Notes under the pieces: model-generated
Databases searched by the model: none
Told to the model about the DNA's origin: nothing
Seen by the model: the letters and a program-made list of their open reading frames with translations, nothing else
Shown: positions 9,267 to 27,767 of the stretch, in pieces
Position numbering within the stretch: the stretch's first letter is position 1
Layout of the letters: every line of letters starts with the position of its first letter
Source: Sphingobium sp. WTD-1
GTDB lineage: Bacteria; Pseudomonadota; Alphaproteobacteria; Sphingomonadales; Sphingomonadaceae
DNA length: 64,000 nucleotides
Reading direction: 5' to 3'
Assembly (NCBI RefSeq): GCF_030128825.1
Contig: NZ_CP119127.1
Location: 478,001-542,000 of the forward strand
Program-made: the position numbers and the translations under genes

Positions 9267-9373
9267 CCGAGCGGTCGGCACCCTAGCGCGTCGCTCTCAT
9301 CGCCCGCGTGGGGGGCCCGGGCGCGGCGGCGTGCGTTGAGCGGCTTTCCCCGAACCGGCCACGGAGATACTCC

Positions 9374-9971: not shown

Positions 9972-9996
9972 GGAACCTCTCAGGTAGCACAAGGTT
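9972..9996 (+). promoter_or_regulatory. EcfG-like promoter candidate
   Basis: GGAAC (9972-9976), a 16-base spacer and GGTT (9993-9996), one mismatch from CGTT. It is 118 bp upstream of the formaldehyde dehydrogenase-like gene at 10114 and would also serve the PfpI gene behind it. Confidence 0.45.
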
Positions 9997-10113
9997 CAGG
10001 AAACTGAGATCACTTGGAAGGGTGCGATGTCCTCCGCCGCTGCGATGGACCGGATCATCAGCAAGGTCTCGATTTGATGACGCGTTGAGAAGAGCTGCGA
10101 AAGGAAAGGATCC

Positions 10114-11253: not shown

Positions 11254-11284
11254 CCTTAGTCTTCGACGGAATAGGAAATAAATT

Positions 11285-11854
11285 ATGACTTTGGAAGGCA
11301 AATCGGTTGCCATTCTGATCGCACCCCGAGGGACGGAAGAACCAGAATTCTCGAAGCCCAAGCAAGCTGTCGAGGACGCTGGTGGCAAAGTGACCGTGAT
11401 CAGTTTTGAACCGGGCAAGGCTCGCACAGTCAATAGCGATCTTGACGAGGGCGCCAGCTATACTATCGACAAGACGTTTTCCGAGGTGAAAGCCGACGAT
11501 TTCGACGGACTTGTTGTGCCCGGAGGGACTGTCGGTGCCGACAAGCTGCGCGGCAGCGTCGAGGCAATTGCTTTCATCCGGGCTTTCTTCGATCAGAAAA
11601 AACCTGTTGCCGCTATATGCCATGCACCCTGGACATTGATTGAGGCGGGCGTGCTTGAGGGTCGCACCTTGACGTCCTACCCGACGCTGAAGGTCGATAT
11701 CGAGAACGCCGGCGGTGCATGGACCAATGAGGAAGTCGTGGTCGACAACGGTCTTGTTACCAGCCGCGATCCCAATGATTTGCCCGCTTTCTGTGCCAAA
11801 CTCGTTGAGGAAATCGCAGAAGGCGTGGACGCAGCGCTCGCAGCAGGGAATTAA
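11285..11854 (+). CDS. DJ-1/PfpI family protein (YhbO/general stress protein 18 type)
   Basis: A 189-residue class I amidotransferase-like protein of the PfpI/YhbO subgroup. It has the conserved VPGGTVGADKLR loop and the nucleophile elbow AAICHAPWTLIEAGVLEGRTLTSYP, with the CHAPW signature typical of the group. These proteins protect against oxidative, thermal and glyoxal stress. Together with the upstream aldehyde dehydrogenase gene it forms a two-gene aldehyde-stress unit. A second, distinct DJ-1 homologue is at 4637. Confidence 0.92.
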   Translation: MTLEGKSVAILIAPRGTEEPEFSKPKQAVEDAGGKVTVISFEPGKARTVNSDLDEGASYTIDKTFSEVKADDFDGLVVPGGTVGADKLRGSVEAIAFIRAFFDQKKPVAAICHAPWTLIEAGVLEGRTLTSYPTLKVDIENAGGAWTNEEVVVDNGLVTSRDPNDLPAFCAKLVEEIAEGVDAALAAGN

Positions 11855-11917
11855 GGCGGGGCGTTTCGACGAACCATGTAAGGGCCTCTCACTTGAAAAG
11901 GTCCGCACAAAGCAAAT

Positions 11918-11950
11918 GTGGCGGATGGCCAGCGATTGGCCGTCCGCCAC
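11918..11950. terminator. Strong hairpin between convergent genes
   Basis: A long inverted repeat (GTGGCGGA-x-GGCCA pairing with TGGCC-x-TCCGCCAC, loop GCGAT) lies between the convergent PfpI and uvrA genes. There is no U-tract, so it is a terminator or mRNA 3' stabiliser by position only. Confidence 0.4.
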
Positions 11951-12109
11951 GCCGCGTATCACACGAACGCGGCGCACCTGGCGGGCACACAAACCCTAAG
12001 CCGCGTCAACCGCGGTCACACATCGCCGGTTCCCGCTTCCAGATTCGACCCATTCCAACTTGTGGTTGAGTTGCACATGATCGAACGTGCGTTCGGCCAG
12101 ATTTACGAC

Positions 12110-14770
12110 CTACAGCGCCGCCTTGAGATAGCGGGCGGTGAGACTGCCTTCCGCTTCCGCAACGACGCCAGGGACGCCGCTGGCAACGATACGGCCTCCA
12201 TCTTCCCCGGCCCCCGGTCCCAGGTCGATGATCCAGTCGACCTGTGTGATGGCGCGCATGTCATGTTCGACGACTACGACGGTATTGCCGGCGTCTACGA
12301 GGCCCTGCAGGTGTTGCATCAGCCGATCGCCATCGGAGGGGTGAAGCCCCGAAGTTGGCTCGTCGAGGATGTAGATCGTGTTGCCGCGTTGAGCGCGTTG
12401 CAGTTCAGTCGCCAGCTTGATGCGCTGCGCCTCCCCGCCAGACAACTCGGTCGCCGGCTGACCGAGCCTCAGATAGCCAAGACCGATCTCCCGCAACACG
12501 TCGAGGGAGCGCATCACAGATGCCTCGCCAGCGAAGAAATCGCACGCATCGTCGACAGTCAATTCGAGCACCTGGGCGATATTGCGCCCGTTCCATTCGA
12601 CTTCGAGCGTTTGCGGGTTGTAGCGAGAGCCATGACAGGTCGAGCACGGGGCAAAAACGCTCGGCAGGAACAGCAGCTCCACCATGACGTATCCCTCGCC
12701 CTCGCACACAGGACACCGGCCTTGCGCGACGTTGAACGAGAACCTTCCCGGGCTGTAATGCCGCCGGCGGGCGAGCGGCGTATCAGCGAAGATCCGTCGC
12801 ACATGGTCGAACATGCCGCTGTAGGTGGATAGGTTCGAGCGCGGCGTGCGGCCGATCGGTTTCTGATCGACCCGCACCAGCCTGCGAACATGCTCCATGC
12901 CTGCGACAATGCGTCCTTCAGTGTCGTTCTGCGCAACATCGAGCAGCGGATCGATATCCTCCTCCTCGGCCGCGGGGGAGCCGCCGAGGTGTTCCGTGAC
13001 GAGCTCGGGCAGCGCCTGACTGACAAGACTGGATTTGCCCGATCCCGAAACGCCGGTGACAGCGGTGAAGCAGCCGATGGGAAACTCGACGTCGAGACCA
13101 TGGAGATTGTTCCGCCTGATCCCTTCCAGGCGTAGCCATGCCTTGGGATCGCGCGGTGTGCGCTCACTGCGGAGCGGCTCTGCGAACAGGTAGCGGCGGG
13201 TGATCGAAGTCTCGACGTCGGCAAGTCCCTCTATCGGCCCGCTGTAGAGGACTTCACCGCCCTTTTCCCCGGCTCCTGGCCCGACATCGACGAGCCATTC
13301 CGCGCGGCGGATCACGTCGAGATCATGTTCGACGACGAACAGGGAGTTGCCCGCCGCCTTGAGACGCTCGAGGATGGTGAGCAAGGCTTCGCCATCTGCC
13401 GGGTGCAACCCTGCCGAAGGCTCGTCAAGCACATAGACCACGCCGAAAAGCTGTGACGACAATTGCGTGGCAAGCCGCAAGCGCTGCAGCTCTCCGGAGG
13501 AGAGCGTCGGCGTGCTGCGGTCGAGCGAAATGTAGCCAAGGCCAAGATCGATCAGCGGCTCTAGCCGCTCGATCAATTCGCAGGCAAGGCGTTGGGCGGC
13601 GATCCGCTTCTCGTCGGAGAGATTGGGCGTGCGGCGTACGTCGGGCGCGCTCTTGTGCGCAGAGCCGCCCGCCGCAACCCGTTGTTCGACCGCTGCATCG
13701 CGGGCCGCTTTTTCCAGAACATGGCCCTTTGAGGGGGCGGAGACCGCCCCATACGCGCCATGCGCGACGGGCATCAGCAAGTCCTTCAGCTTGAGCACCG
13801 TCAGGTCGCCGAACTCGGCAATGTCGAGGCCGGCGAATTTGACCGACAGGGCTTCGCGCTTCAGGCGCTTGCCGTCGCAGGTCGGGCACTCGCGGCCGAT
13901 GATATATTGCGAGACGCGCTTCTTCATCAGCGCGCTTTTAGTGTTGGCGAAGGTTTCCAGCACATAGCGGCGCGCGCCGGTGAAGGTGCCCTGGTAGCTC
14001 GGCTCCATGCGGCGCTTGAGCGCCGTCCGGGTCTGTTCGGGCGTCAGGCCCGCATAGACCGGCACCGTCGGCGCCTCTTCAGTGAAGAGGATCCAGTCGC
14101 GATCTTTTTTCGGCAGGTCGCGCCACGGCGTATCGACGTCATAGCCGAGCGAAACGAGGATATCGCGCAGGTTCTGGCCATGCCAGGCGGCCGGCCAGGC
14201 GGCGATCGCTCGATCGCGAATGGTGAGGCTGTCGTCAGGAACCATCGTCTCTTCGGTCGCGTCATATACGCGGCCGATGCCGTGGCAGGTCGCGCAGGCT
14301 CCCGCGACCGTGTTGGGCGAGAAATCCTCCGCATAGAGCATGGGTTGATGGCGCGGATATTCGCCGACGCGCGAATAGAGCATCCGCACCAGGCTGGAGA
14401 GCGTCGTCACGCTGCCGACCGAGGATCGCGCGTTGGCCGAGCCGCGCTGCTGCTGCAGCGCGACCGCAGGCGGCAAACCGTCGATCGCGTCGACCTCCGG
14501 CACGCCGGCCTGGTCGATCAGGCGACGGGCATAGGGCGCAACCGATTCCAGATAACGCCGCTGCGCTTCGGCATAAAGGGTGCCGAACGCGAGCGATGAC
14601 TTGCCCGAGCCCGATATGCCGGTGAACACCACGAAGGCGTCGCGCGGTACATCGACGTCGACATTTTTGAGGTTATTCTGGCGCGCGCCGCGAACCTGCA
14701 CGCAAGCGGGCGGCCCCGTATGCCCATGATCGGTGGCCGGCGTCGTCGCGTGAATATCCTTGCTCTTCAA
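12110..14770 (-). CDS. UvrA-like excinuclease subunit (class II, UvrA2 type)
   Basis: An 886-residue tandem ABC ATPase. Walker A motifs are [14 protein letters not shown] and [15 protein letters not shown]. Signatures are [16 protein letters not shown] and [16 protein letters not shown], with Walker [12 protein letters not shown] and [11 protein letters not shown]. Zinc-finger CxxC pairs are CATCHG, CPTCDG, CPVCEG and CSTCHG. The stretch between the first Walker domain and the first zinc finger is short, so the UvrB-binding domain of canonical UvrA is missing, as in UvrA2 proteins tied to DNA-adduct tolerance or export. Translation probably starts at TTG 14770 behind AGGA. It stands alone, without uvrB or uvrC. 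Confidence 0.93.
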
Positions 14771-15162
14771 TTCAGTCTTCCTGCCCTATCCGCCCGTGCA
14801 GCCCGTGGTTCATTACAGTCGGGTAACAGATGAATGCTTTTCCGGCTCAATACATCCAAAGGTCAGGCTGGCCCGATATTCGGCACCTTTGAAATATTTT
14901 CCAGCATTGGACAAAGGTTACGACAAAACCATTTTCCCCGTTGGATCGCGCGACGAGGCCACACACACTCCGCTGGTAAGCGCCTGGGCCAGGCGGCCCT
15001 GGTCCGTGCCGCTATCGGCATGTAACGACCGCACTTCGGCGCTTGTTACCGCATCGCGACGCGTTGCCCATTTGCCAGAGCGCGCTTCATCATGCCGGGG
15101 TCGGGCCATGATGACGGCCGAGTTGTCGATCCGAGCGCCTCGCGCCGCTTCGGATCGGCGGG
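14771..15162. other. Intergenic, no gene seen
   Basis: Between the 5' end of uvrA and the 3' end of the class III alcohol dehydrogenase gene, both on the minus strand. It should contain the uvrA promoter, but no consensus element is clear. Open frames are shadows without ribosome binding sites. Confidence 0.4.
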
Positions 15163-16323
<1,161 letters not shown>

Positions 16324-16372
16324 TCAGCGCAAATTCGTGGGGGAGCGATCGCTCACTCCCCCGGTATGCCGG

Positions 16373-17362
16373 TCAGACCGTAACGACGACCTTGCCGATC
16401 TGGTCGTTCGATTCGAGGAAGCGGTGAGCGTCCTGGATGGCGTCGAGCGGGAAAGTGCGCGCGATCCGCGGCTTGAGCGCGCCCGATTCCAGACCCGCCA
16501 CGATGAACGCCTTGGCGCGATCGAGGGCGGCATCGTCCGAGACGATCTCGCTGTAGAGATACCCCTTGAGCGTGAGGCTCTTGCCCAGCACGGAGAACAA
16601 CGGGAACGGCGTCGGTTCGCCGCTGAGCGCGCCATATTCGAGCAGGATGCCGCCGCGTGCCATGCTCTCGGTCAGCGGCTCGAACGACGGGCCTCCGACC
16701 GGATCGAGCACCACGCGCGCACCCTGACCATCGGTTATCTCCATCACCCTCGCTACCAGGTCCTCTTCCCCGGTCGCGACGACATGATGCGCACCGGCAT
16801 CGATCAGGGCCTGGCGCTTGGCGCCGGTACGCGTCGTCGCGATTACCGTCGCGCCGACCATCCGCGCAATCTGGAAGGCCGCAAGGCCGACGCTGCTGGA
16901 GGCAGCTGTGACGATGACGAAATCGCCCTCGCCGAGTTTCGCCTGCTCCACCAGTGCACCCCAGGCGGTGACATACTGCATCCACACGGCCGCCGCTTCC
17001 TCGAACGACAGCGCCGCCGGATGCTTGACGACGAGGCGGGCGGGCACGTTGGCGACCTCGCCATAGGTGCCCCAACGCGCGATATCGAGCGGGGGGATGA
17101 CGCTGACGGCTTCGCCTTCCGCAAACCCGGTAACGTCGGCGCCGACCGTAACGACAGTGCCGGCAGCCTCATAGCCAAGGCGGCTCGGGAACTCGGCTTC
17201 CTGAAGGTAGGCATGGTTGCGGAACATCACCTCGGCGCGGTTTATGCCTATCGCCTTCACCGCGATCTGCACTTCGTCGGCCGCAGGCGCGGGGACTGCC
17301 ACATCTTCAATCCTGAGGACGCTGGCGTCGCCATATTCGTGGATACGGACGATGCGGCTCAT
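16373..17362 (-). CDS. Zinc-independent medium-chain oxidoreductase (quinone oxidoreductase-like)
   Basis: A 329-residue MDR protein with GroES-like N-terminus (GINRAEVMFRNHAYLQEAEFPSRLGYEAAGTVVTVG) and Rossmann domain (VIVTAASSSVGLAAFQIARMVGATVIATTRT). The catalytic zinc cysteines of alcohol dehydrogenases are absent, so it fits the quinone oxidoreductase/zeta-crystallin group using NADPH. It is divergent from the TetR gene with 96 bp between, which suggests that regulator controls it. The substrate is probably a quinone or enone, by family. Confidence 0.9.
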   Translation of the reverse strand: MSRIVRIHEYGDASVLRIEDVAVPAPAADEVQIAVKAIGINRAEVMFRNHAYLQEAEFPSRLGYEAAGTVVTVGADVTGFAEGEAVSVIPPLDIARWGTYGEVANVPARLVVKHPAALSFEEAAAVWMQYVTAWGALVEQAKLGEGDFVIVTAASSSVGLAAFQIARMVGATVIATTRTGAKRQALIDAGAHHVVATGEEDLVARVMEITDGQGARVVLDPVGGPSFEPLTESMARGGILLEYGALSGEPTPFPLFSVLGKSLTLKGYLYSEIVSDDAALDRAKAFIVAGLESGALKPRIARTFPLDAIQDAHRFLESNDQIGKVVVTV

Positions 17363-17385
17363 TGGAGACTCCTTGATTATTTAAT

Positions 17386-17441
17386 GATCGTTCTGTAAGG
17401 GAGCGGACCACCCGTTTCAAGATATTATTTATCGATCGTTC
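17386..17441. promoter_or_regulatory. Repeated GATCGTTC elements in the tetR / oxidoreductase divergent region
   Basis: The octamer GATCGTTC occurs at 17386-17393 and 17434-17441, 48 bp apart, in the AT-richer gap between the divergent oxidoreductase and TetR genes. One copy lies near each start. They are candidate operator half-sites. The evidence is repetition and position only. Confidence 0.35.
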
Positions 17442-17458
17442 CATATCGTGCATCAGAG

Positions 17459-18079
17459 ATGACAGAGACGAAAGCCCGTCGCCGCGCAGGTCGCCCTCGT
17501 GTGTTCGACACTGACGCTGCGCTCGACAAGGCGGTGCGGCTGTTCTGGCAGCGCGGCTACGAGGCGACATCGATGGCCGATCTGGTGGCGGAGACTGGCG
17601 TCGCCGCCGCCAGTCTCTATGCAGCGTTTGACAACAAGGCGGGGCTGTTTGCGGCGGTGATCGAACGTTACGCCGCGACGTTCAGCGTCCACCTCTATGC
17701 ACCCATCAACGATCCGGCGTTGTCCACCTACGAAGCCGTCAAAGGCCTGCTGGAACGAGCGGCGTCATCATTCTCGGAACCTGGAACGCCGGCCGGCTGC
17801 TTCATGTATTCGGCAGCGGCAGCCGTTTCGCCGGCGTCCGCCGCCATCGAATGCCTGCTGCGCGACAAGCGTATCGCGGCGGAGGCCCTCCTAATCGAGC
17901 GTCTGCAACGCGGCGCCGCGCAGGGCGAGCTTGCGGCCAACACCGATCCGGCCGTGCTAGGCAAATTCATCAATACGGTCATGGAAGGCATGTCCGTTCA
18001 AGCGCGCGACGGCGCTACGATCAACGAACTGCTCTCCATCGCCAAAATGGCGCTCGATCGATGGCCGGCCGCGATATGA
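17459..18079 (+). CDS. TetR/AcrR-family transcriptional repressor
   Basis: A 206-residue regulator with an N-terminal TetR helix-turn-helix (RVFDTDAALDKAVRLFWQRGYEATSMADLVAETGVAAASLYAAFDNKAGLFAAVIERY, residues about 15-75) and a C-terminal ligand-binding domain of the TetR_C type (GCFMYSAAAAVSPAS). Length is normal. It is divergent from the quinone oxidoreductase gene and 74 bp upstream of the aldo-keto reductase gene, so it may control both. The ligand is not predictable. Confidence 0.93.
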   Translation: MTETKARRRAGRPRVFDTDAALDKAVRLFWQRGYEATSMADLVAETGVAAASLYAAFDNKAGLFAAVIERYAATFSVHLYAPINDPALSTYEAVKGLLERAASSFSEPGTPAGCFMYSAAAAVSPASAAIECLLRDKRIAAEALLIERLQRGAAQGELAANTDPAVLGKFINTVMEGMSVQARDGATINELLSIAKMALDRWPAAI

Positions 18080-18152
18080 TCGTTTCATGGTGGTCATCTG
18101 CCAATCTGCCCCCCGACCGAACAGTCGAACTCATCTCATAGGACGAAAGCAC

Positions 18153-18983
18153 ATGAAACACGTGACATTGCCCGGCGGGGAAGTGGTTCCTTCACTGGGT
18201 CAAGGCACCTGGAAGATGGGCGAACGTGCCGAGCGCCGATCCGATGAGATCGCCACGCTACGCGCCGGTGTCGAACTGGGCATGACGCTCATCGATACCG
18301 CCGAAATGTACGGCGATGGTGCGGCGGAAACGCTGATATCCGAGGCGCTGGGCAGCGTTCGCGACCAGTTGTTCCTCGTCAGCAAGGCATATCCGCAGAA
18401 CGCATCGCGCTCCCGCCTTGCCGATGCATGCGAGGCGAGCCTGAAGCGGCTCGGCACCGACCGGCTGGACCTCTACCTGCTCCATTGGCGGGGATCGGTG
18501 CCGCTCGCTGAGACTGTGGAGGCATTGGAGGCGCTCAAATCAGCGGGGAAAATCAGGCATTGGGGTGTCAGCAATCTCGATACCGACGATATGGACGAGC
18601 TTATCGCTGCCGGCGGGGATGGCTGCGTGACCGATCAGATCCTCTACAATCTCGTCCGTCGAGGCCCTGAGTTGGACCTGTTGCCGTGGCTCGCCCAGCA
18701 CAAAGTGCCAGTGATGGCGTATAGTCCCGTCGAGCAGGGACGCCTCTCAAGCCATCCCGCCCTCGACAAAGTAGCGGCCCAGGTTGGCGCAACCCCTGCG
18801 CAGGTCGCACTTGCCTGGACGTTGCGCCACGATGGCCTTATCGCCATCCCGAAAGCGAGTTCGATTGCACATGTGCGGGAGAACCGCGCGGCCGCAGATA
18901 TCGTGCTCTCCGACGCCGACATTGCGACACTCGATGCGGAATTTCCCAGACCACGCGACCGCCGTCCACTCGAGATGCTTTAG
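18153..18983 (+). CDS. Aldo/keto reductase
   Basis: A 276-residue (alpha/beta)8 NADPH-dependent reductase. The tetrad is visible as Asp in LIDTAEMYG (with Tyr of MYG), Lys in LVSKAYP and His in LYLLHWRG. GVSNLDTDDMDEL and the NADP-binding IPKASSIAHVRENRAA are conserved. It resembles YeaE/DkgB-type methylglyoxal reductases. The ATG at 18153 follows AGGA; the frame upstream lacks a site. It follows the TetR gene on the same strand and fits the carbonyl-detoxification theme of this region. Confidence 0.92.
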   Translation: MKHVTLPGGEVVPSLGQGTWKMGERAERRSDEIATLRAGVELGMTLIDTAEMYGDGAAETLISEALGSVRDQLFLVSKAYPQNASRSRLADACEASLKRLGTDRLDLYLLHWRGSVPLAETVEALEALKSAGKIRHWGVSNLDTDDMDELIAAGGDGCVTDQILYNLVRRGPELDLLPWLAQHKVPVMAYSPVEQGRLSSHPALDKVAAQVGATPAQVALAWTLRHDGLIAIPKASSIAHVRENRAAADIVLSDADIATLDAEFPRPRDRRPLEML

Positions 18984-19505
18984 CGTCAGATGACGATATT
19001 ATCGCTCGAAGGAACAGAACGCAAACCGGATCGGCGGTAGGCGCTCAGCGGTGCGGTGATCGGACCAGTGTCGACACCGCTATCGAGCGGGTGCTGCGCG
19101 ACTGACGGTTCGAGCACCAGGCCTATCGCGCCCCTGGCCCCAATCTGCTCTTAGCCTCCACGAATAACCGTCTGACCGTTCTTACCGTCTATGGGGCGTA
19201 TCCGAGCTGGCAGGGCATCCAGCCAAGGGCGTAATTCTTGTCCATCGGGCGCTCGGGCGGCCTAGCTGTCAGCACGACACCGCGCTGCCTGAGTTTCCGA
19301 GCTGCCATCCCAGCGTGCGCCGCTGGCGGGAAGGTGAGCCGATTACTCGCTCAAGCTCAGTTCGACAGAGCGCAGGCCATGAACCGTTCACTGCACTGCA
19401 GCGCCGAATTAGCGCTCTGCTACCTAGAGAGCTGCTTAGCAAAAAAAATGCTCTCAATAGCCCGATCTCGCAAGCTCAGTATCTGATTTACGAAAAAGGG
19501 AAATG
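18984..19505. other. Intergenic flank of the integration site
   Basis: No supported gene. Short frames are interrupted and lack ribosome binding sites. By the orientation of the tRNA fragment at 19506, this stretch is the original downstream flank of a tRNA-Lys gene. Confidence 0.45.
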
Positions 19506-19559
19506 TGGTGGACGCACTAGGGCTCGAACCTAGGACCCGCTGATTAAGAGTCAGCTGCT
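19506..19559 (-). repeat. 3' half of a tRNA-Lys(CUU) gene: putative integration attachment site
   Basis: On the minus strand this encodes an anticodon stem-loop (GCTGA, loop CTCTTAA, TCAGC, anticodon CUU), variable loop, T-arm (CTAGG-TTCGAGC-CCTAG), acceptor 3' strand TGCGTCC and ACCA. Bases further upstream on the minus strand do not form a D-arm or the matching 5' acceptor GGACGCA, so the 5' half of the tRNA is missing. Such 3' fragments are left at one end when a tyrosine integrase inserts an element into a tRNA gene. The geometry puts the element at higher coordinates. It is not a functional tRNA gene. Confidence 0.85.
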
Positions 19560-19991
19560 TGACGGCAGCTTTAGCCGATTTCTCCCCAAAAGAGGACGGT
19601 CAACAATCGGCCCACTTTCTGCCGATCTGTGATGCCAGTCAGGCAAACGATGTATGTCGGCTCCAGACAGGAGCTGCCATCCGATCTATCAATTTGGAAC
19701 GGCAGCACTGTCCCAGGCCCAGTCATAATCGGGCGGTCCGCTTTCAAGCATCGTAATATTGCGGTCGAACGGCTTGAGTGGGCGCAAAGCAGTCATTTCA
19801 AGTGTGTAGCTCAGATGTCCGCCTTTGGTCGCTTTCCAGACCCACCGGTTTCCGCCAGCGCCTGGCCGATTCATTCCCTGAGCCAATCTCCAGCAATGTT
19901 GTAACACTTCAAGATAACTGATTTTCGATGCTGAGCAGATGTTCGCGACCAAACATTGCATCGACAGCGATGACCCCGCATAGGCGATCGC
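19560..19991. other. Element end, no gene recognised
   Basis: The first 430 bp inside the putative element. A 153-codon minus-strand frame crosses it, but its composition is unlike the neighbouring genes and it largely opposes the small gene at 19992, so I do not call it. No integrase gene is found at this end. Confidence 0.35.
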
Positions 19992-20159
19992 ATGCGTGAA
20001 CCGATGCAAGCCGCCATCCTCGCCGTGATAGAACGCGCGCCGATCTGGATCAGGCAGGATCTGACATCGAAGGATCCGGCGGCCCGCACGCGCGCGGAGG
20101 AGTCGCTGGCGATGATCATCGCCGACGCCGTCCAAAGGCAATCCGCGCAAGCCGATTGA
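19992..20159 (+). CDS. Small conserved-looking hypothetical protein (55 aa)
   Basis: The frame reads MREPMQAAILAVIERAPIWIRQDLTS and continues with KDPAARTRAEESLAMIIADAV and a short polar tail. The pattern of a helix ending ERAPxWIRxDL, then a charged turn and a second helix, recalls small uncharacterised sphingomonad proteins (DUF6771-like), from memory. Its TGA lies next to the stop of the convergent MNT-HEPN gene at 20160, a tidy boundary that supports it. The ribosome binding site is weak. Function unknown. Confidence 0.5.
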   Translation: MREPMQAAILAVIERAPIWIRQDLTSKDPAARTRAEESLAMIIADAVQRQSAQAD

Positions 20160-21092
20160 TCAGGCGGCAACGCCAGCGGTGCGCCTGAGTTCAGCGATCC
20201 GCTCGGCACAGACTTCATGCACGACGCGGCCCAACTCCTCGATCTGCTTGCCAAGCCAGCCGAGTTCCGCCTCGCTTATCTTGTAATGCTTCGAATAGCG
20301 GGCCTTCACATAGGCCTCCTTGAGCTTCTCCCAACGCGCCTGGTCGATGCGGCGCTCACGCGGCCAGACGTCGACCAGGCGGCGATCGAGGCGCTCGGCC
20401 TGGGTACGGAGAAAGCCGATATTATGGACATGGGGCGTGTAGAAGGTCGTGACCAGAAGGACGCAGTGGTAGAGGCTCTCAGTCGCCTGATGTAACTCGA
20501 AAGCAGCGTGCTTGTTGAGACTTTCGCCGATCGCAAATCTCGCGAGCTTCATTCGGCCTTCCGCTGCAGGCAACCACTCTTCTAAATATTCCTGCGCCAT
20601 GGCGAGCGCCTGATCCGGCGTCTTGGGCTTGGGGACGTGGAGCTCTGTGTCCTCGACCTGGTAGAGGGCAATGCCGTCTTCGCGCACGTCCATGAAGAAG
20701 TAGCGGCCATGGGCGAGGCCATCATTCACCTCCTGAAGAGTGTGGACGATGAAATTGACCGGCGTGCGAATGGCATGGGTGATCGCAAGCTCGCGATTGA
20801 ACCGGTCCTCGAGCTTCAGCCAATAATCGACGCGTTCGGTCAGGCGCTTGTCGTTGACGATGATGAGGATGTCATAGTCGGACTGATAGCCCTTGGCCGT
20901 GTGCGGTTCATCGACCCAGCCGCCCCTGGCATAGCTGCCATAAAGGATGATCTTTTCGATCCGGCCGCGCTTCTTCCAGCCATGATTGGCGAGCGCCAGC
21001 GCATCCTCGAATTCCTCGAAGATGATCCGCACGACCCGCTCGAGTTCGCGCTGCTTGTCGCCGGGCAAATGATCCAGATCGGTCCGCATCAC
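20160..21092 (-). CDS. Fused minimal nucleotidyltransferase-HEPN protein
   Basis: A 310-residue two-domain protein. Residues about 40-120 are an MNT nucleotidyltransferase, with ILYGSYARGGW and SDYDILIIVNDKR giving the GSx10DxD catalytic pattern. Residues about 165-290 are a HEPN four-helix domain (FELHQATESLYHCVLLVTTFYTPHVHNIGFL, then KARYSKHYKIS). MNT and HEPN are usually separate antitoxin and toxin; here they are one chain. The expected HEPN RNase motif Rx4-6H is not clear: the closest is RYSKH with three intervening residues. It may be an inactivated or self-neutralised toxin-antitoxin, or an element-maintenance factor. Confidence 0.88.
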   Translation of the reverse strand: MMRTDLDHLPGDKQRELERVVRIIFEEFEDALALANHGWKKRGRIEKIILYGSYARGGWVDEPHTAKGYQSDYDILIIVNDKRLTERVDYWLKLEDRFNRELAITHAIRTPVNFIVHTLQEVNDGLAHGRYFFMDVREDGIALYQVEDTELHVPKPKTPDQALAMAQEYLEEWLPAAEGRMKLARFAIGESLNKHAAFELHQATESLYHCVLLVTTFYTPHVHNIGFLRTQAERLDRRLVDVWPRERRIDQARWEKLKEAYVKARYSKHYKISEAELGWLGKQIEELGRVVHEVCAERIAELRRTAGVAA

Positions 21093-21143
21093 CCTATCCT
21101 AGCTTAGACCGCATGGCGGCCGCAATGATGGGCCGGCCGATCA

Positions 21144-21629
21144 TCAGTGCCTGTCTTCATTCTGTGCCGCATGCTGCATCGCGGCGCGCGCTTCGGCATG
21201 CCACAGGCGCATGGCCGTCAGCGCGGCAGGCGTGAGCCTGACCAATATGCGGCGACGATCGCGGGGATCGGCCACGCGTCTGACCACGTCCAGCGCCGCC
21301 AGCTTCTTGATCCATCGCTGTGTCGTTGCCGGCGCCAGGCCGGCGGCAATGCCGACCGCCGTGATCGGGAGATCGACCTCCTCGACCATGCAGGCATAGA
21401 TATCGAGCATCACATCCCATGCCGGCTCAACGGACTGGACCAGCTCGGGAAGATCGGCGCGGCGGCGGCGCATCCGGATGATGGAGCGGATGAACGCCGC
21501 GTCATTATCGACCTGCGAGCCTTGGGCATGATCCTCGTAAATGTTCTGGGGTTCCGCGCTGTCGGGCCGCGGGCTGCTTGCCGGCAGGATCATGGCAGGC
21601 CTGAGTCGCCTGCGCGGTTGCTCGGTCAT
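21144..21629 (-). CDS. MarR-like winged-helix regulator
   Basis: About 161 residues. A proline-rich N-terminus precedes a winged helix-turn-helix: VDLPITAVGIAAGLAPATTQRWIKKLAALDVVRRVADPRDRRRILVRLTPAALTAM, with the DPRDRRR wing typical of MarR proteins. I start it at the ATG at 21629; the frame is open much further but over the opposite strand of the membrane-protein gene. It lies in the regulatory block at the left end of the element and may control transfer or quorum-sensing genes. The ligand is unknown. Confidence 0.78.
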   Translation of the reverse strand: MTEQPRRRLRPAMILPASSPRPDSAEPQNIYEDHAQGSQVDNDAAFIRSIIRMRRRRADLPELVQSVEPAWDVMLDIYACMVEEVDLPITAVGIAAGLAPATTQRWIKKLAALDVVRRVADPRDRRRILVRLTPAALTAMRLWHAEARAAMQHAAQNEDRH

Positions 21630-21765
21630 GGCGCCCTGCTCCCGCAGTGGGTGTAGAAAAGCCTGTGGATAAGTCTGTGGATAAATCCGGCCTGCGCGGC
21701 GCCTTGCTGCTCTTCCCCTGCTCCTGGATGAAAATGTGTGGCGCGGTCTTTCGGCCTGCGCGCGT

Positions 21766-22224
21766 TCAACCACCATAGCCACGGGCTGGCGGCGACCAGG
21801 CCGGATCCGAGCCATGGCGCCTGACCCGATTGCGATGGCGGATGGTGGCGACAGCCAGAAACAGCATCTGCGGCACCGCCCAGAACACATTGCTGATCCA
21901 GTAGAGGACCGGTACGATCTGCGGATCGAGCAGCCGGATGACATGGCCCATGACCGCCAGCAGCTGGCATGCCGTGATCGCCATCGGCCAGTAGCGGCGC
22001 GCGAACAGCATGATCGCGCCCAGCGCGAGCAGCATGGCGAGATCGACCGCGAAGATCGCCGACTGGAAGCCGTCTGGCGGGGGCGGCGCATGGATGGAAA
22101 TCATGATCGAGGCGAAGATGCCGGCCAGGAAAATCGTGGCGGTGAGCCGTTCGGGGCTGCCGCCCCGCACCAGGGCATAGAAGCAGCAGATCGCCGAAAG
22201 GATCAGGAAGGCCAGAAGGATCAT
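21766..22224 (-). CDS. Four-helix membrane protein of unknown function
   Basis: A 152-residue protein with about four hydrophobic helices (MILLAFLILSAICCFYALV; LTATIFLAGIFASIMISI; AIFAVDLAMLLALGAIMLFA; QMLFLAVATI) and a basic, proline-rich cytosolic tail. Similar small membrane proteins occur in sphingomonad plasmids and ICEs, but I know of no function. It sits between the MarR-like and the hypothetical gene at 22274, all on the minus strand with moderate gaps. Confidence 0.65.
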   Translation of the reverse strand: MILLAFLILSAICCFYALVRGGSPERLTATIFLAGIFASIMISIHAPPPPDGFQSAIFAVDLAMLLALGAIMLFARRYWPMAITACQLLAVMGHVIRLLDPQIVPVLYWISNVFWAVPQMLFLAVATIRHRNRVRRHGSDPAWSPPARGYGG

Positions 22225-22273
22225 GGTTGCTTGTCCACATTAGAGCTGGCCTTCCCCCTTTTTGCAATCGGGC

Positions 22274-22642
22274 TCAGGCCGCCGCCACGAGCGTGGCGAC
22301 GGGTGCCGGCTGCGTCTTCGCCTGCTGACAGGGCCAGGTGGGACCGAAGCTTTCGGGCGTCGCCCCGAAGCGCCGTGCGATCCGGCCATATTCTGCATGA
22401 GCTTCGACGATCGCGGTGCGGCTTTCCATATGCGCGTCGATCGCCCGCCGCAGCTTTGCGAGCGCCGGCTCGGCAATGCCCGGCGGCAGGCCATGATCTT
22501 CCTGCACCCTGATCGTCGCGATGATGAGCTCTGCCGTCGAGACGATGCCGCTATCGGCAGACTTCTCGGCGAGCTGGACTGCGGCGGCGACGGTCATGAT
22601 GCCGCCATGGAGCGGATGGTCGGTCGGCTTGGACATGCGCAT
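22274..22642 (-). CDS. Conserved-looking hypothetical protein (about 120 aa)
   Basis: A soluble, mostly helical protein: LHGGIMTVAAAVQLAEKSADSGIVSTAELIIATIRVQEDHGLPPGIAEPALAKLRRAIDAHMESRTAIVEAHAEYGRIARRFGATPESFGPTWPC. No domain is recognised. Start may be 22642 or the ATG two codons later, close to a GGGAGAA site. It lies in the minus-strand regulatory block, 54 bp downstream of the LuxR-HTH gene. Confidence 0.6.
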   Translation of the reverse strand: MRMSKPTDHPLHGGIMTVAAAVQLAEKSADSGIVSTAELIIATIRVQEDHGLPPGIAEPALAKLRRAIDAHMESRTAIVEAHAEYGRIARRFGATPESFGPTWPCQQAKTQPAPVATLVAAA

Positions 22643-22696
22643 TCTCCCTGCGCCACACCTGATGGCGCAACTGCTGTGATGCCGGCGCGGGAGATT

Positions 22697-23278
22697 TCAG
22701 TGGGAGAGGCTACGGAGAAAATCGGCAATGCTGAAGAGCATGCCCAGGCCAGCGCTGATCGCGAAGAAGCAGAAGCCGATCGCGATTGCGACCGCCAGCG
22801 TCAGCAGCGACCGCGTGGCCAGCGTCATTCCATCCGGTCTCGTTCCATCGAAAATTTCCTGCACGAGCAGGCCAAGGCTGACCTGCCCGCGAGGCGGGGT
22901 GACGGACCGCCTCTCACCCTGATGTCCATCGTCCGGTTCGGACGGCTCGATGGCGTTCAGGGCGTGGGGCAGAGGTGCGGCAGGGTCGATGGTTTCGGCT
23001 AGACCTAGCAAATCGCCCCCTATTTTCTCGGGGGTGTCGGCAATGACATGACCTGGGGCTTGCGGCACGACCTGGGCCAGATGATCGGCATAGAGAAGGG
23101 CCGCATGGCGGCGATCGCGCGCGCCGATCTTGGTGACCGCGTCGCGAATATAGGTATTGACGGTGCCCGGTCGGATATCGAGTGCGCGGGCGATATCCTC
23201 CGAACTTTTGAGGTCGCGTACCATCAGCAGGCATTCGCACTCTCGAGGCGTCAGGCGGTCAAATGGCGTCTCGGTCAT
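22697..23278 (-). CDS. LuxR-type HTH protein with C-terminal membrane anchor
   Basis: About 193 residues. An N-terminal GerE/LuxR helix-turn-helix (FDRLTPRECECLLMVRDLKSSEDIARALDIRPGTVNTYIRDAVTKIGARDRRHAALLY) is followed by a disordered linker and one hydrophobic helix near the C-terminus (LLTLAVAIAIGFCFFAISAGLGMLF). There is no autoinducer-binding or receiver domain. I use the ATG at 23278, which begins just before the HTH; a TTG at 23329 would add 17 residues. The order HTH-linker-TM is unusual and suggests a membrane-tethered regulator. It lies next to the quorum-sensing genes. Confidence 0.82.
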   Translation of the reverse strand: MTETPFDRLTPRECECLLMVRDLKSSEDIARALDIRPGTVNTYIRDAVTKIGARDRRHAALLYADHLAQVVPQAPGHVIADTPEKIGGDLLGLAETIDPAAPLPHALNAIEPSEPDDGHQGERRSVTPPRGQVSLGLLVQEIFDGTRPDGMTLATRSLLTLAVAIAIGFCFFAISAGLGMLFSIADFLRSLSH

Positions 23279-23445
23279 GCGCGGGTCTGGAACCTCTTGG
23301 CCTTTTGCGAACAATGTTCTTTTAGGCAATATTGGGTTGCAAATCTCAACGCATTATGACCGCCGATGACAGTGCGATCTTCAGCCTGCGAGCCCCGGCC
23401 TTGCGCTGCGCGCCGTCAGCGCACGCCGGAAGCGTGTCTGCGCCT

Positions 23446-24045
23446 TCAGTTCTCGCGGACCGCATGGGCCAGTTGCGGGGCGATAGCGCGGCGTCGTGCA
23501 TGATATTGCTGCAGCAGACGGGTAAGCGCTTCCCAGCTCCCGGCGCGTGCGGTCTGGTCGATCTCGTCGATTTCGGCGGCGGCGCCGGCCAGCAAGTCGG
23601 CCTCCATACGACGATAAGGACCCAGGCGCGCCGCTGCATTGGCAATCGCCCGATCAAGTTCGCCATTGCCCGCCGCCATGCCGATCGAACCGAACAGGAT
23701 CGCACACTGATCGGCGATGCCATTATGGCCTTGGGGAATGTCGAGTTGCGCTTCCCCGGTTTCGAGCCGCCGCAGCCCGACACTGAGCAACATCTCGTGC
23801 CAGTCGAGCAGCTGGCTGATATCTGCTGCATCGAGCCGGGGCACATGGAAGCCGATCCCTGCCGTGGCCTGGACCAGGCGCTCACCACTGAGCCGATTGA
23901 GGCTGTCGCGCACCGGCGTGATGCTGACCCCGAGGTCCAGCGCCAGCTTGGTGGCCTCGAGGCGGAAGCCCGATGGCCAGGTTCCGGCAATCAGCCGCCG
24001 GCGGAGCGCGTCATAGGTGGGCTCGAGCACATGGGCCGGGCTCAT
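23446..24045 (-). CDS. GntR-family transcriptional regulator (FadR/FCD-like)
   Basis: A 199-residue regulator with a winged helix (LEPTYDALRRRLIAGTWPSGFRLEATKLALDLGVSITPVRDSLNRLSGERLVQATAGIGFHVPRLDAADISQLLDWHEMLL) typical of GntR, where the linker to the helical FCD-like effector domain is clear. The C-terminal helical domain is shorter than in FadR. The ATG overlaps the stop of phyH as TGATG, so it is the last gene of a luxI-phyH-gntR transcript. It could feed back on this operon. Confidence 0.85.
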   Translation of the reverse strand: MSPAHVLEPTYDALRRRLIAGTWPSGFRLEATKLALDLGVSITPVRDSLNRLSGERLVQATAGIGFHVPRLDAADISQLLDWHEMLLSVGLRRLETGEAQLDIPQGHNGIADQCAILFGSIGMAAGNGELDRAIANAAARLGPYRRMEADLLAGAAAEIDEIDQTARAGSWEALTRLLQQYHARRRAIAPQLAHAVREN

Positions 24046-24914
24046 CGCCCTTCTCCGGCGCGCTCGAGATAATCGGCGAGCATCGCCTCCTGGTCGGGCC
24101 GCAGCGCATCGATCGCGCCGACATGGTCCGGAATGCCGTCGCGGAGCAGGATCGACGGGCACTGGCCTTCATAATTGCCCAGATTGGGGCGATGCTGGGC
24201 ATAGCCGACCAGGGCGGCAAGTTCGGGACTGAAATTCCTGGCAATATCGGGTGGATAGGCGAGCCATTGATTCTCATAGGGTTTGAGCCAGCCCAGGCAG
24301 TAGCCGACCACGATCCCGCGCCGGCTGTCATGGCTGCTATTGGCGCCTGCGCCATGGGCCGTGGAGCCCAGAAAGACGATAGCACCGCCCGGCGGGCACT
24401 GCGCCACAATGGGTGCGCCCGGATCCGACCTGGCCATGCCGGTCTCGCCATGGCTGCCCGGGTAGATCAGCGTCGCACCATTTTCGCGGGTGAAGGGATC
24501 GAGCGGCCATATCACATTGACCAAATATTCATGGGCGCCCTTGGCGCCCTGCCACATGTCATGGTCACGATGCGGCAGCTGTTGCGCCTCGCCCGGCAAT
24601 ATCTCGACCGCCTGCATGACATTGAGCTGGATCCGGTCGCAGGCCGGCCTCAGCACCGTTTCGACCAGGTCCATTATGAGGGCATTGAAGACGAGGGCTT
24701 GCGCATGGCGCGAGCGCTTGAGCAGTCCGCCAAAGCGCCTGGTCTTCTCGCCATAGAAGCGCCCCTGGCAGAGCGGCGTGGCGGCAAAGCTCGGTTCAAG
24801 ATCTTTGTTGAGCGCCTGGATGATCTCCAGCGGGAGCGCATTTTCGATGATGCAGTAGCCATCCCGCAGCAGAGTCTCGGTCGCGCTCTTGTTGCTGGGC
24901 TGGTCGGCAGTCAT
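24042..24914 (-). CDS. Phytanoyl-CoA dioxygenase (PhyH) family oxygenase
   Basis: A 290-residue Fe(II)/2-oxoglutarate-dependent dioxygenase. The iron-binding HxD is in LPHRDHDMWQ, the distal His in GSTAHGAGANSS, and the 2-oxoglutarate-binding Arg in HDSRRGIVVGYCLGW. The N-terminal LLRDGYCIIENALP is typical of PhyH. Its ATG overlaps the luxI stop, and its own stop overlaps gntR. From memory, phyH next to luxI/luxR is a recurrent arrangement in sphingomonads, suggesting that it acts on the signal, its acyl precursor or a quorum-regulated metabolite; the substrate is not known. Confidence 0.92.
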   Translation of the reverse strand: MTADQPSNKSATETLLRDGYCIIENALPLEIIQALNKDLEPSFAATPLCQGRFYGEKTRRFGGLLKRSRHAQALVFNALIMDLVETVLRPACDRIQLNVMQAVEILPGEAQQLPHRDHDMWQGAKGAHEYLVNVIWPLDPFTRENGATLIYPGSHGETGMARSDPGAPIVAQCPPGGAIVFLGSTAHGAGANSSHDSRRGIVVGYCLGWLKPYENQWLAYPPDIARNFSPELAALVGYAQHRPNLGNYEGQCPSILLRDGIPDHVGAIDALRPDQEAMLADYLERAGEGR

Positions 24915-25537
24915 GCGCGCCTCCCATGGCGCGGGGCGCTCAGCCGAAATTGCAGCGGCATGTGGATGCCAGCGCGTTGGAGCCCAATTGGCGTCTTCGC
25001 GTCTATGTGGATGTGGAGGGCGACAAGCTCCTGACTGCCGTACCGGAGCGGTTGCCCCAGCGCCTCGCATTGCCAGCCGAAGGTCCGGATCTTCTCGAAC
25101 CATTGGCGTTCGGCAACGCCGGTATAGGAGCGGATGTCGTTCGCCAGGGCATGATCGACGAGCGCGGTCACCAACTGGTTGCGCGCTGCGCGCCGTTCGT
25201 CTGCCTTGAGGTCGCGATCGAGACAGAAGCGGGTGATCTCCCGGACATGGTCGCCCGTCGGCACCGGTCCAGCACACAGATGCGGGAACAGATCGGCGAG
25301 AATATGAGGGCGATCGGTCGGCAGCAGCCGTGTCGAGGCGCGATGACGAACTTCCGTGTCCGTCAGCACCAGATACTGGGCGTCTGGATTATCGAAATGA
25401 TCGATCTCGTAGCGATCGGCGAGGACCGGAAGATCCCATTTGAGCAGGTCGATGAAGACCCGCTTGCGCGCTTCGAACATGGCGCGCAGCACCGCGTCCT
25501 CGTCGATGTCCGGGCTCTGAATGATCGGGGCTGGCAT
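24911..25537 (-). CDS. LuxI-family acyl-homoserine-lactone synthase
   Basis: A 208-residue autoinducer synthase: the invariant N-terminal Arg/Phe/Trp pattern (ARKRVFIDLLKWDLP), YEIDHFDNPDAQYLVL with the conserved E-x-D-x-F-D, ASTRLLPTDRPHILADLF and REITRFCLDRDL. It makes an N-acyl-homoserine lactone from SAM and an acyl carrier or acyl-CoA. ATG at 25537 follows AGGA. A LuxR gene lies immediately upstream on the same strand, and phyH and gntR follow with overlapping codons. This is a complete quorum-sensing cassette inside the mobile element. Confidence 0.93.
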   Translation of the reverse strand: MPAPIIQSPDIDEDAVLRAMFEARKRVFIDLLKWDLPVLADRYEIDHFDNPDAQYLVLTDTEVRHRASTRLLPTDRPHILADLFPHLCAGPVPTGDHVREITRFCLDRDLKADERRAARNQLVTALVDHALANDIRSYTGVAERQWFEKIRTFGWQCEALGQPLRYGSQELVALHIHIDAKTPIGLQRAGIHMPLQFRLSAPRHGRRA

Positions 25538-25547
25538 GCGCTGTTCC

Positions 25548-25575
25548 TGTCATGATTAAACATGCACGCATGACA
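25548..25575. promoter_or_regulatory. Inverted repeat upstream of luxI, possible LuxR-binding site
   Basis: TGTCATG (25548-25554) and CATGACA (25569-25575) form seven-base inverted arms with 14 bases between, just upstream of the luxI ribosome binding site. Spacing is wider than in a standard 20-bp lux box. It is the only clear dyad in the luxR-luxI gap apart from the hairpin at 25585. Confidence 0.35.
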
Positions 25576-25584
25576 TCATCGCAG

Positions 25585-25619
25585 CGCTACCCCGCCTATA
25601 CCCAGAAAGGGGGATAGCG
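25585..25619. terminator. Hairpin in the luxR-luxI gap
   Basis: CGCTA and TAGCG arms plus inner CCC/GGG pairs can fold into a stem across 25585-25619. On the minus strand it follows the luxR stop by about 30 bases. There is no U-tract, so it is at best a weak attenuator. Confidence 0.3.
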
Positions 25620-25650
25620 CCGCCGCGCGCTTGTGCGGCGGCGCATTTGT

Positions 25651-26403
25651 TCAGGCCCGCTCGCGCCAGCGGAAAATGTCGGAGAAGCTGATCAGGCCAT
25701 CGAACAGCGCGAAGAGGATGAGCGAGGCACGGTTGCTCGTGTCGTAGCGGTCGCGCGCTTCTTTGAGATGCTGGATCACCGTTTCCTTGCTGATGCCAAG
25801 GATCCTGGCGATCTCCCAATTGGTCTTGCCGCGCGCTGCCCAGAGCACGCAGTCGCGTTGCCGGTCGGTGAGGCGCGGTTTCTTTGCCGGGCGGCGCCAT
25901 CCCGATAGCCGGCTCGCTTGGGCGATCGCGATCGCGCCCAATATGTCGGCGATGATGAGCATGCGCTCGGGAAGTGGCCGGTCGGTGCCGGTCACGAAGG
26001 TGCAGCTGCCCGTGATCGTGCCGGGCAGATGGCGCGGGACCGTGAACCCGTCGAGCATGCCATGTTTGCGGCCGGTCTCGAAGGTGACGCGCTCGATCGG
26101 CGTCATCGGGATGAGATCCTCGATATCGCGCCATCGAAAGCCCGAGAGGCTGCTTTCACCGGCCCTTCGGACCGGATCGGTCTGAGCAAGATTGAAGCCG
26201 ATATAGATATCCGCCCAGCTGGACGGATAGCTGTGGAGGAGCATCGATGTGCCCGAATGTCCGCCAAGGCCGACCTCGACGCTGAGGGCGAAGCGATCGA
26301 ACCCCAATGCTGTGGCGACCCTGTCCATCGCCTCGTGAAGGGCATCTGCGGACAGGGCACGAATGATGGTCTGACTGAGCGACTCTATCTGTTCCTGGTG
26401 CAT
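25651..26403 (-). CDS. LuxR-family AHL-responsive regulator
   Basis: A 250-residue protein with an N-terminal autoinducer-binding domain (residues about 15-165: FALSVEVGLGG, SYPSSWADIYIGFNLAQTDPVRRAGESSLSGFRW and the conserved Trp/Tyr/Asp positions) and a C-terminal GerE helix-turn-helix (LTDRQRDCVLWAARGKTNWEIARILGISKETVIQHLKEARDRY). It is the cognate receptor candidate for LuxI, whose gene follows 113 bp downstream on the same strand. TraR of Ti plasmids offers a precedent for quorum control of conjugation; whether it does so here is inference. Confidence 0.93.
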   Translation of the reverse strand: MHQEQIESLSQTIIRALSADALHEAMDRVATALGFDRFALSVEVGLGGHSGTSMLLHSYPSSWADIYIGFNLAQTDPVRRAGESSLSGFRWRDIEDLIPMTPIERVTFETGRKHGMLDGFTVPRHLPGTITGSCTFVTGTDRPLPERMLIIADILGAIAIAQASRLSGWRRPAKKPRLTDRQRDCVLWAARGKTNWEIARILGISKETVIQHLKEARDRYDTSNRASLILFALFDGLISFSDIFRWRERA

Positions 26404-26991
26404 TCCTCTGGATCTGCGTCCATGGCGACAGGCCCAACCCGTTCGGCCATGAAGGCGCCCTTTCCCTGGCTCGGGCCTTTGGCGACGTCCCTCACGCCGC
26501 GCCGCGAGCGTTCATGTCTGCCTTTGGCTGCAACCCTGTCCCGGCTTTTGCTTGCGGACTCTTCTGGTCCGCGACCCAATCTGCCCGAATGACCTGGGGT
26601 TTCAAGACACTTTTGTGACAGTGGCGGATTGTGGGAATGGGGCGCGGCCCGGACATGCCCGGCCGGGCTCTATCCCGATCTTCCGATCGGGATAGAGCCG
26701 CCTTGGTCTGGGCCTGTCGGTCACGATCCCTGCCACAGGATAAGAGTGTCTGCGGTCGCCGCGCGGGCGCGGCGGCGTCGGTCTGGCCGCTTCCTCTCAA
26801 AATCGGGAGTGGCCGGCGCTCTCTGCTAGGCGCGTCACGGCCGGCGGCAAGCTGCTGCGCAGCTGCTCCATTGCATTGCGCCCTGCCGGTGCCCCCGACC
26901 GCTCGAGCGCGCCTCTCCGCTCGCACGCTGCCGCCCACCCCCGCTTTTGCGCGGAAGCGGCTGGTGTGAGGTTCAAGAGCAGGAGGATATC
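26404..26991. other. Divergent intergenic region between luxR and ardC
   Basis: About 590 bp without a supported gene. It contains the long hairpin at 26666-26699 and should hold promoters for luxR (minus) and the ardC transcript (plus). Open frames here are GC-rich shadows. Confidence 0.4.
26666..26699. repeat. Perfect 15-bp inverted repeat with UUCC loop
   Basis: Arms 26666-26680 and 26685-26699 pair without mismatch and enclose the tetraloop TTCC. No U-tract follows on either strand. It lies midway between the divergent luxR and ardC genes, so it could be a protein-binding dyad, a transcript-borne structure, or a single-strand origin-like hairpin. Confidence 0.55.
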
Positions 26992-27651
26992 ATGCGTGGC
27001 AAGACCAGCGCTCGGGCGCGCAGCGCAAGCGACATGTCGGATCGGACCAGCCTCTATGATGAGGTGACCAGCCGGATCATCGGGGAACTGGAAGAGGGGC
27101 GTTTGCCATGGGTCCAGCCTTGGGGGAGCGGGGCGGACCTTGCCCCCGGCCTGCCGCGCAATGCGCTCACCGGCCGCGCCTATTCGGGCGTCAATATCCT
27201 CATTCTCTGGTCCACCGTGATCGAGCGCGAATATCCCTCGCAGGGCTGGCTGACCTTCAGGCAGGCGCTCAGCGCTGGCGGTCAGGTGAGGAAGGGCGAG
27301 AAGGGCACGACCGTGGTCTATGCCGATCGCTTCATCCCGCAGGCCGAGCGGGACAAGGCACGGGGCGGCGAGGAGGCGAAGGCTATTCCCTTCCTCAAGC
27401 GCTTTACCGTTTTCAATGTCGCGCAATGCGAAGGCTTGGCGCCGGGGCTTCTCCCCGATGACCTGCCTGTGCCCGAACGCGAGGCCATCCCCCTTGCCGA
27501 GGCAGTCATTGCCGCCAGTGGCGTCGATTTCCGGGTCGGCGGCGATCAGGCCTATTATGTTCCGTCACAGGATTTTGTCGCGGTGCCGCCGCAACAGGCC
27601 TTCTTCGAGCAGATCAACTATTACCGGACCTGTCTGCATGAACTGACCCAT
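26992..27651 (+). pseudogene. ardC-like antirestriction gene, 5' part (interrupted)
   Basis: Encodes the N-terminal 220 residues of an ArdC protein: the ssDNA-binding DUF1738 domain (SLYDEVTSRIIGELEEGRLPWVQPW; NALTGRAYSGVNILILW; GWLTFRQALSAGGQVRKGEKGTTVVYADRF; FTVFNVAQCEGL) and then the zincin domain up to its HELTH metal motif. The frame is cut exactly after that His by the RIT element; the rest resumes at 31023 in the same frame. ATG 26992 follows a perfect AGGAGG. ArdC proteins protect incoming plasmid DNA from restriction. As it stands the gene should be inactive, ending in 25 element-encoded codons. Confidence 0.92.
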
Positions 27652-27678
27652 AATGCCGTGATCCGGATTATGCCGCAT
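27649..27678. repeat. RIT element left terminal inverted repeat (30 bp)
   Basis: The 30 bases at 27649-27678 are the exact reverse complement of 30962-30991. They begin in the last codon of the interrupted ardC motif. Subrepeats of the type CGGCATAAT recur at both ends (also 27722-27734 with 30905-30917). Confidence 0.95.
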
Positions 27679-27767
27679 CTGATCGGCAGCGCGCGGTTGG
27701 CAGTATGATCGCGCCAATCCCATTCGGCATAATCTTCGTCGCTCCAACGACATGGAGCACGACGATC

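Follow-up and report, generated by a model that had tools for sequence, protein, structure and literature searches.

Two described systems come closest to the locus reported here. For the tRNA-gene islands of Islander, the part of the paper drawn on here describes an attP that contains a tDNA fragment, with the anticodon loop among the crossover subsites (PMC4383910). In sphingomonads, the portion of the report on pPDL2 of Sphingobium fuliginis that we use describes an integrative mobilizable plasmid with an attP at the 3' end of int1 that matches a tRNA-Ser, and recombination was shown for it (PMC3516476). Our locus lies in a window of 64,000 nucleotides, the whole stretch analysed, which corresponds to C1:478001-542000 of a 5.67-Mb genome. 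Like the Islander islands, so far as the part of that paper used here describes them, the window has the 3' fragment of the target tRNA, here a tRNA-Lys(CUU), including the CCA end, and copies of the adjoining detoxification block part at the anticodon loop, a crossover subsite in Islander (PMC4383910). Unlike those islands, the window fragment is without a matching intact gene at the other end, that gene being in the opposite orientation and 2.9 Mb apart, and it has mobile DNA on both sides (PMC4383910). The likeness to pPDL2, within the portion of its report used here, is that of a sphingomonad plasmid with a tRNA-like attachment site: in two other genomes, a tyrosine recombinase gene has its 3' end close to where the 156-bp arm next to our fragment ends, at a distance of 8 bp (G094) or 78 bp (G037). 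The differences are that pPDL2 involves a tRNA-Ser rather than a tRNA-Lys(CUU), that recombination is established for pPDL2, and that among the genes scanned no tyrosine recombinase gene lies beside the window copy (PMC3516476). With the principle covered by these two precedents, the window fragment adds another case of a known phenomenon. Its features are collected in Table 1, where G and C numbers are our labels for genomes and contigs.

Table 1 Features at and around the tRNA-Lys(CUU) fragment, in window coordinates
Feature	Position	Strand	Remark
Formaldehyde/redox-detoxification block	3335..19033	+	Plasmid-borne in relatives
Plasmid-like stretch, Tn3 remnant between block and end A	19093..19160	+	82-86% like plasmid DNA
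End A, adjoining the tRNA 3' end	19160..19505	+	70-89% like tRNA-Lys-side segments elsewhere
tRNA-Lys(CUU) 3' fragment	19506..19559	-	Equals A-type tRNA as far as base 54 of 76, counted from CCA
Anticodon loop	19544..19550	-	Block, end A and core switch to other DNA after 19550 (G292:C69) and after 19551 (G242)
Arm, 156 bp, with predicted hairpins	19560..19715	+	Identical over its full length in G094:C84; ends at the breakpoint common to full-arm copies
18-bp site TGTCCCAGGCCCAGTCAT (pattern TGTCCCANRCCMNGTCAT), next to a hairpin	19709..19726	+	Left and right partners change here
Right-hand segment: nucleotidyltransferase/HEPN, LuxR-type regulators, PhyH, ArdC	19811..27678	+	91.6% in G038
RIT-type element, three tandem tyrosine recombinase genes	27649..30991	+	Perfect 30-bp inverted repeat; at the end of ardC
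Plasmid/ICE-type genes: ParB, HU, DUF736, RepA (RPA), DUF2840, SLT, VirD4-type coupling protein, TrwC relaxase	31606..49151	+	

The tRNA-Lys(CUU) fragment and the intact gene of the host

Read as the reverse complement, 19506-19559 gives in order an anticodon stem, a CUU loop, a variable loop, a T-arm, the 3' acceptor strand and CCA; in tRNA terms the fragment starts just before the anticodon stem and ends at the CCA. Intact A-type tRNA-Lys(CUU) genes in relatives have all 54 bases unchanged in their 3' part, and an identity of this length leaves a chance match of no concern. The first-pass annotation had recognised an anticodon stem-loop, T-arm and CCA end without the 5' part, and had taken them for a displaced 3' fragment of tRNA-Lys(CUU) of the type that integrases leave. 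Both statements are borne out by our reading and by the base-for-base identity to the A-type genes, and the tRNA identity of the window copy stops at base 54 of 76, in agreement with the coordinates given at that time. A spliced 5' half adjacent to the fragment had been named as a point to check; with as many as 3 mismatches allowed, a 26-base pattern of the 5' half was not found in the window, and a split or trans-spliced tRNA was rejected because the window is without a 5' half. Compared with the 3' end of the host genome's own matching tRNA-Lys(CUU), 52 of the 54 bases are identical. The two differences are both sides of one T-stem pair and are compensated, the T-stem reading CTAGG/CCTAG in the window copy and CTTGG/CCAAG in the host gene, which is T-type.

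Searching the genome with 50 bases and up to 3 mismatches gave two places, namely the window copy and, on the other strand with 2 mismatches, C1:3389392-3389441. The latter belongs to the host's matching intact gene at C1:3389366-3389441, which lies 2.89 Mb from the window half in the opposite orientation. A 5.8-kb island adjoins this gene; its far end is a third tRNA-Lys copy, a T-type half that stops at the anticodon loop, and a tyrosine recombinase gene adjoins this half. The pair of intact gene and fragment that had been predicted does exist in the host genome, elsewhere and with another fragment. The proposal that the intact tRNA stands at the other end of the window's element fails on the distance and reversed orientation of the matching gene, on its two compensated T-stem bases, and on the island and half copy that it already has. 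A second copy in the genome, suggested as a check, is found in the form of two near-copies at the intact tRNA locus, but neither is the other end of this element. The window has the 3'-terminal piece of a tRNA gene that the genome also possesses, and no intact cognate at the other end in the same orientation and within island distance.

The 5.8-kb island resembles the window fragment in its target tRNA and in the half copy at its far end. It differs in that its half is T-type and stops at the loop, and in having its own tyrosine recombinase and PD-Lambda-2-like genes. Inside it, 4 kb from the matching gene and on the strand of the window half, are two further intact, diverged tRNA-Lys(CUU) genes, which bring the intact genes of the host genome to three; the acceptor and anticodon stems of these two are unlike those of the host gene. 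The island (L004:67-5960 = C1:3389366-3395259) also has genes like PD-Lambda-2_B and PD-Lambda-2_C, which are associated with defence. Cargo tRNA-Lys beside a defence system might guard against tRNA-Lys-cutting toxins. A general link between PD-Lambda-2_C and tRNA-Lys was rejected, since, of 15 PD-Lambda-2_C loci in the family sample, a single one had tRNA-Lys nearby, that of the host genome itself.

Origin of the fragment

The two tRNA types were surveyed in a same-genus sample of 94 genomes. Matches were present in 92 of the 94, and the 146 matches were sorted by hand into 78 intact A-type genes, 57 intact T-type genes, 8 A-type halves and 3 T-type halves. At the search threshold, half copies of tRNA-Lys(CUU) thus number 11, in 11 of the 94 genomes, and this tRNA can be regarded as an insertion point used repeatedly in sphingomonads. 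No intact A-type gene is present in three of the 8 genomes that have an A-type half (G000, G007 and G075). The window's genome has a T-type intact gene and an A-type half. Since its T-stem pair differs from that of the host's matching gene, the window half is foreign and, judged by this base pair, came from outside the host genome. A chromosomal rearrangement parting the two ends of one element was rejected, as the T-stem types differ and as the fragment and its neighbours occur in other species and contexts.

DNA to the left of the fragment

The detoxification block includes a UvrA paralogue, formaldehyde dehydrogenases, a flavin oxidoreductase, TetR and LysR regulators and an aldo/keto reductase. 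From about 3304-3335 to 19550-19715, the DNA is 96-99% alike in G044, G037 (96-98%, to 19715) and G292:C69 (99.1%, 3335-19550), and shorter stretches ending at the same point, 19715, are found in G025, G075, G066 and Sandaracinobacteroides hominis (G066 and G075 correspond to MAG records). The fragment, with the block on its left and the whole or part of the arm on its right, thus recurs at about 91-99% identity in other Sphingomonadales. Plasmids carry this DNA as well: in a high-similarity search, 65 plasmid records matched at least part of 3300-19760 and 6 matched at least 80% of it. For example, plsm_A (NZ_CP142674.1), a complete plasmid of Qipengyuania sp. HL-TH1 that is recorded as circular, contains the block and the fragment followed by 55-64 bp of the arm from its start, and F-type transfer genes come a few kb later. 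The idea that the element simply begins at 19560 and runs rightward has to be abandoned, because the left-hand DNA (3335-19033 and 19160-19505) accompanies the fragment from genome to genome and onto a plasmid.

At least part of the block is also seen on plasmids of many Alphaproteobacteria and of some other bacteria, one of them from metal-working fluid. In the three copies read from G029, Croceicoccus marinus and Sphingomonas naphthae, the block ends at 19033-19040 without end A and the tRNA fragment. A transposon with matching inverted ends was rejected for the block, as no matching repeat between its two ends was seen by eye. In G066, the tRNA fragment is split across two contig ends (C76 and C5) with an 8-base overlap (19511-19518), which suggests an insertion sequence with an 8-bp target duplication.

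The short plasmid-like stretch between the block and end A is annotated as a Tn3-family transposase in 9 of the 16 listed records with a match. End A itself, in whole or in part, resembles DNA beside intact tRNA-Lys genes in G131, G032, G003 and G269 and DNA beside tRNA-Lys halves in G047, G082, G216 and G337. In G131, the first gene on the end-A side of the tRNA is a Peptidase_S24 gene, and the left part of end A matches its 3' end. Together with the DNA to its left, end A is 95-99.8% alike among G032, G047, G082 and G131, whereas the opposite side of the tRNA-Lys is 71-80% alike (G032, G082 and G131 compared), so that the end-A side must have been exchanged horizontally. We read end A as the probable end of an inserted element; alternatively, it could be a horizontally exchanged chromosomal flank. 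The same contrast weakens the case for end A as a simple native flank. Among the high-identity matches in 94 same-genus and 397 family genomes, the block with end A was not found beside an intact tRNA-Lys.

Exchange of partners at the core

The 54-base core is where partners change. On its right, the block, end A and core are joined to unrelated DNA after 19550 in G292:C69 and after 19551 in G242, switching in both cases at the edge of the anticodon loop; the next gene in G292:C69 is a tyrosine integrase. On its left, G094:C84 has an identical core and arm (19506-19715) with a different partner. In G315, the neighbour of an intact tRNA-Lys is this partner (87% over 803 bp), and dispersed matches to part of it turn up in 53 of the 298 family genomes. 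G094 and G292 are evidently the same MAG, in which the detoxification block is on contig C69, and for this reason G094:C84 was downgraded as proof of a second native attR. The contigs of this MAG would fit a side-by-side array at one tRNA-Lys, and misassembly at the 54-base repeat would also yield C84.

Several properties of an attP can be recognised here. Partners exchange precisely at the core, with the right-hand change after 19550/19551 in two genomes and the left-hand change in the MAG contig G094:C84 at the 3' end of the tRNA; the core has mobile DNA on both sides; and the same junction is present on a circular molecule, NZ_CP142674.1, where the arm is matched only to about 19614-19623. 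A cognate integrase was not seen beside the window copy among the genes scanned, and a Pfam scan of 42 of the 68 listed genes of the window gave no integrase beside the core. The 8 copies of the unit match the tRNA to base 54, and the 8 other halves compared stop at bases 45-47 (the halves of G007, G063, G081 and G084 stand outside this comparison). On this evidence, the arm junction may have come from simple truncation of the tRNA rather than from an integrase crossover.

A second breakpoint at 19715

The first-pass annotation had the element run right from 19560. This holds as far as the arm, since 19560-19715 accompanies the fragment in other genomes, but not beyond it, as the 8 full-arm copies have 8 different sequences after 19715. 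In all seven full-arm copies other than that of the window (G025, G037, G044, G066, G075, G094 and G095), the DNA that follows ...CACTGTCC[C/T]A (19715) is unlike the window and unlike that of the others. Among the first genes past this point are those for SSB (G044), tyrosine recombinases (G037 and G094), a Tn3 transposase (G095), a VirD4-type protein (G075) and Abi_C (G025). Further right, G044 and G094 have plasmid-type genes in common, in a different order. The recombinases whose 3' ends lie near the arm end are of 412 aa (G094) and 364 aa (G037), and the G094 recombinase region next to the arm is common on plasmids, with 91 plasmid records matching at least in part. For the right flank of G037 a plasmid look-up gave no match, and for that of G075 it gave distant matches only, 8 being listed, without annotation. 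The right side of G044 is found at 100% identity on the S. yanoikuyae plasmid pTB1 from TGTCCCA onward, with another left side.

The motif GTCAT occurs a few bases past the breakpoint in 5 of the 8 full-arm copies, that of the window included. Across the same-genus sample, the TGTCCCANRCCMNGTCAT pattern has 14 matches in 13 of the 94 genomes, compared with 0 for the reversed control; the match in G072, one of the 14, looks like chance in coding DNA. These sites have many different left and right partners, and 19709-19726 can be taken as a pointer to a second exchange site. A speculative reading, in which we place little confidence, is that 19160-19726 forms a two-site exchange module, in which the tRNA-Lys core would serve for entry and exit of the block and the 18-bp TGTCCCANRCCMNGTCAT site for re-joining backbones. 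If so, the same block would be re-joined to different plasmid/ICE backbones by some further recombinase acting at the 18-bp site.

Explanations for the fragment

We think it probable, on balance, that the 54 bases are an attachment core, either attP-like or an inter-element junction, which targets tRNA-Lys(CUU) and was imported in a larger mobile stretch. They would represent the crossover core of an integrative element, or of an element family, with this tRNA as its target, and would have been brought from outside as a passenger. The left partner of the core would be the detoxification block ending in end A, and the right partner would be the arm, later joined to various plasmid/ICE backbones. 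Such a layout belongs to an attP site, or to the junction of two elements once inserted side by side, and not to one end of an element inserted in the host's own tRNA-Lys. The exchanges were presumably made by a tyrosine integrase, the circular form may have used the core as its attP, and the window copy is probably inert now, there being no cognate integrase beside the core. The most economical account would be an attachment core between two mobile partners that came in with the block and probably works like an attP.

Other histories have to be weighed against this one. A plasmid could have caught a piece of a donor chromosome, consisting of end A and an intact tRNA-Lys, together with the block, and an illegitimate join to the arm could then have cut the tRNA at base 54, in which case the fragment was never an attP. 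This would account for the tRNA match of the unit copies, which goes on for 9 bases after the anticodon loop and in this differs from that of the other compared halves, and would suit both the Tn3-like remnant nearby and the end A-like DNA beside intact tRNA-Lys in the four genomes named above. We consider it unlikely, given that G292:C69 and G242 switch to unlike right-hand DNA at the loop and, if the MAG contig is correct, that core and arm have a different left partner in G094:C84. Somewhat further down the scale, and in our judgement improbable, is a relic of a true attR, which would have arisen in the chromosome of a donor and been transferred in one piece together with the flank on the host side. 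End A would then be native host DNA, in keeping with several genomes in which end A-like DNA directly adjoins an intact tRNA-Lys, the position expected of a native flank; the closer likeness between genomes on the end-A side than across the tRNA implies, however, that the end-A side moves too.

Far less credible is the arrangement first proposed, in which the fragment is the attR of an element still in the host's tRNA-Lys(CUU), extending rightward from 19560 as far as an intact tRNA outside the window. Its polarity suits, as a 3' fragment has non-tRNA DNA on its 5' side, and the host genome has exactly such a layout at its intact tRNA-Lys. The matching intact gene, however, is T-type and holds another island, and its position 2.89 Mb away on the opposite strand already contradicts this arrangement, barring a wrong assembly or a large rearrangement; moreover, the right-hand DNA is found elsewhere without the fragment, and the fragment elsewhere with other right-hand DNA. 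We attach almost no weight to a working tRNA with an unusual 5' half at 19509-19585. The Rfam tRNA model does give a full-length match there, just over the cut-off (31.8 bits against 29), compared with 71 bits for the host's matching intact gene, but ARAGORN reports no tRNA in the window, the acceptor pairing is broken by eye, the 5' part is the arm and is unmatched to tRNA, and three intact tRNA-Lys(CUU) genes are present in the genome. For island finding, the attachment-core account carries a caution: a displaced tRNA fragment, however perfect, is not always the terminus of something integrated in the genome where it is seen, because plasmid-borne blocks can bring such cores along as passengers.

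The right-hand DNA

The DNA to the right had been assigned to the fragment's own element. This assignment does not survive comparison with G038, where the DNA from 19811 on is present and the block and tRNA fragment are absent in the 15 kb read. RIT elements (recombinases in trio) have three tyrosine recombinase genes side by side and inverted repeats at their termini. The three tyrosine recombinases of the window, at 27.7-30.9 kb, all belong to such a RIT-type element with its own inverted repeats (27649-27678/30962-30991), and a Phage_integrase domain is found in each of the three genes. In G038, the end of the RIT-type element lies at the same place in the opposite orientation. The second domain of the ardC gene at this element is matched only in part. 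Further along the window, a DDE_Tnp_1_4 transposase at 58385-59755, which we take to be IS1380, sits between parts of a TPP enzyme, with the N-terminal/central part at 57216-58280 and the C-terminal part at 59953-60576.
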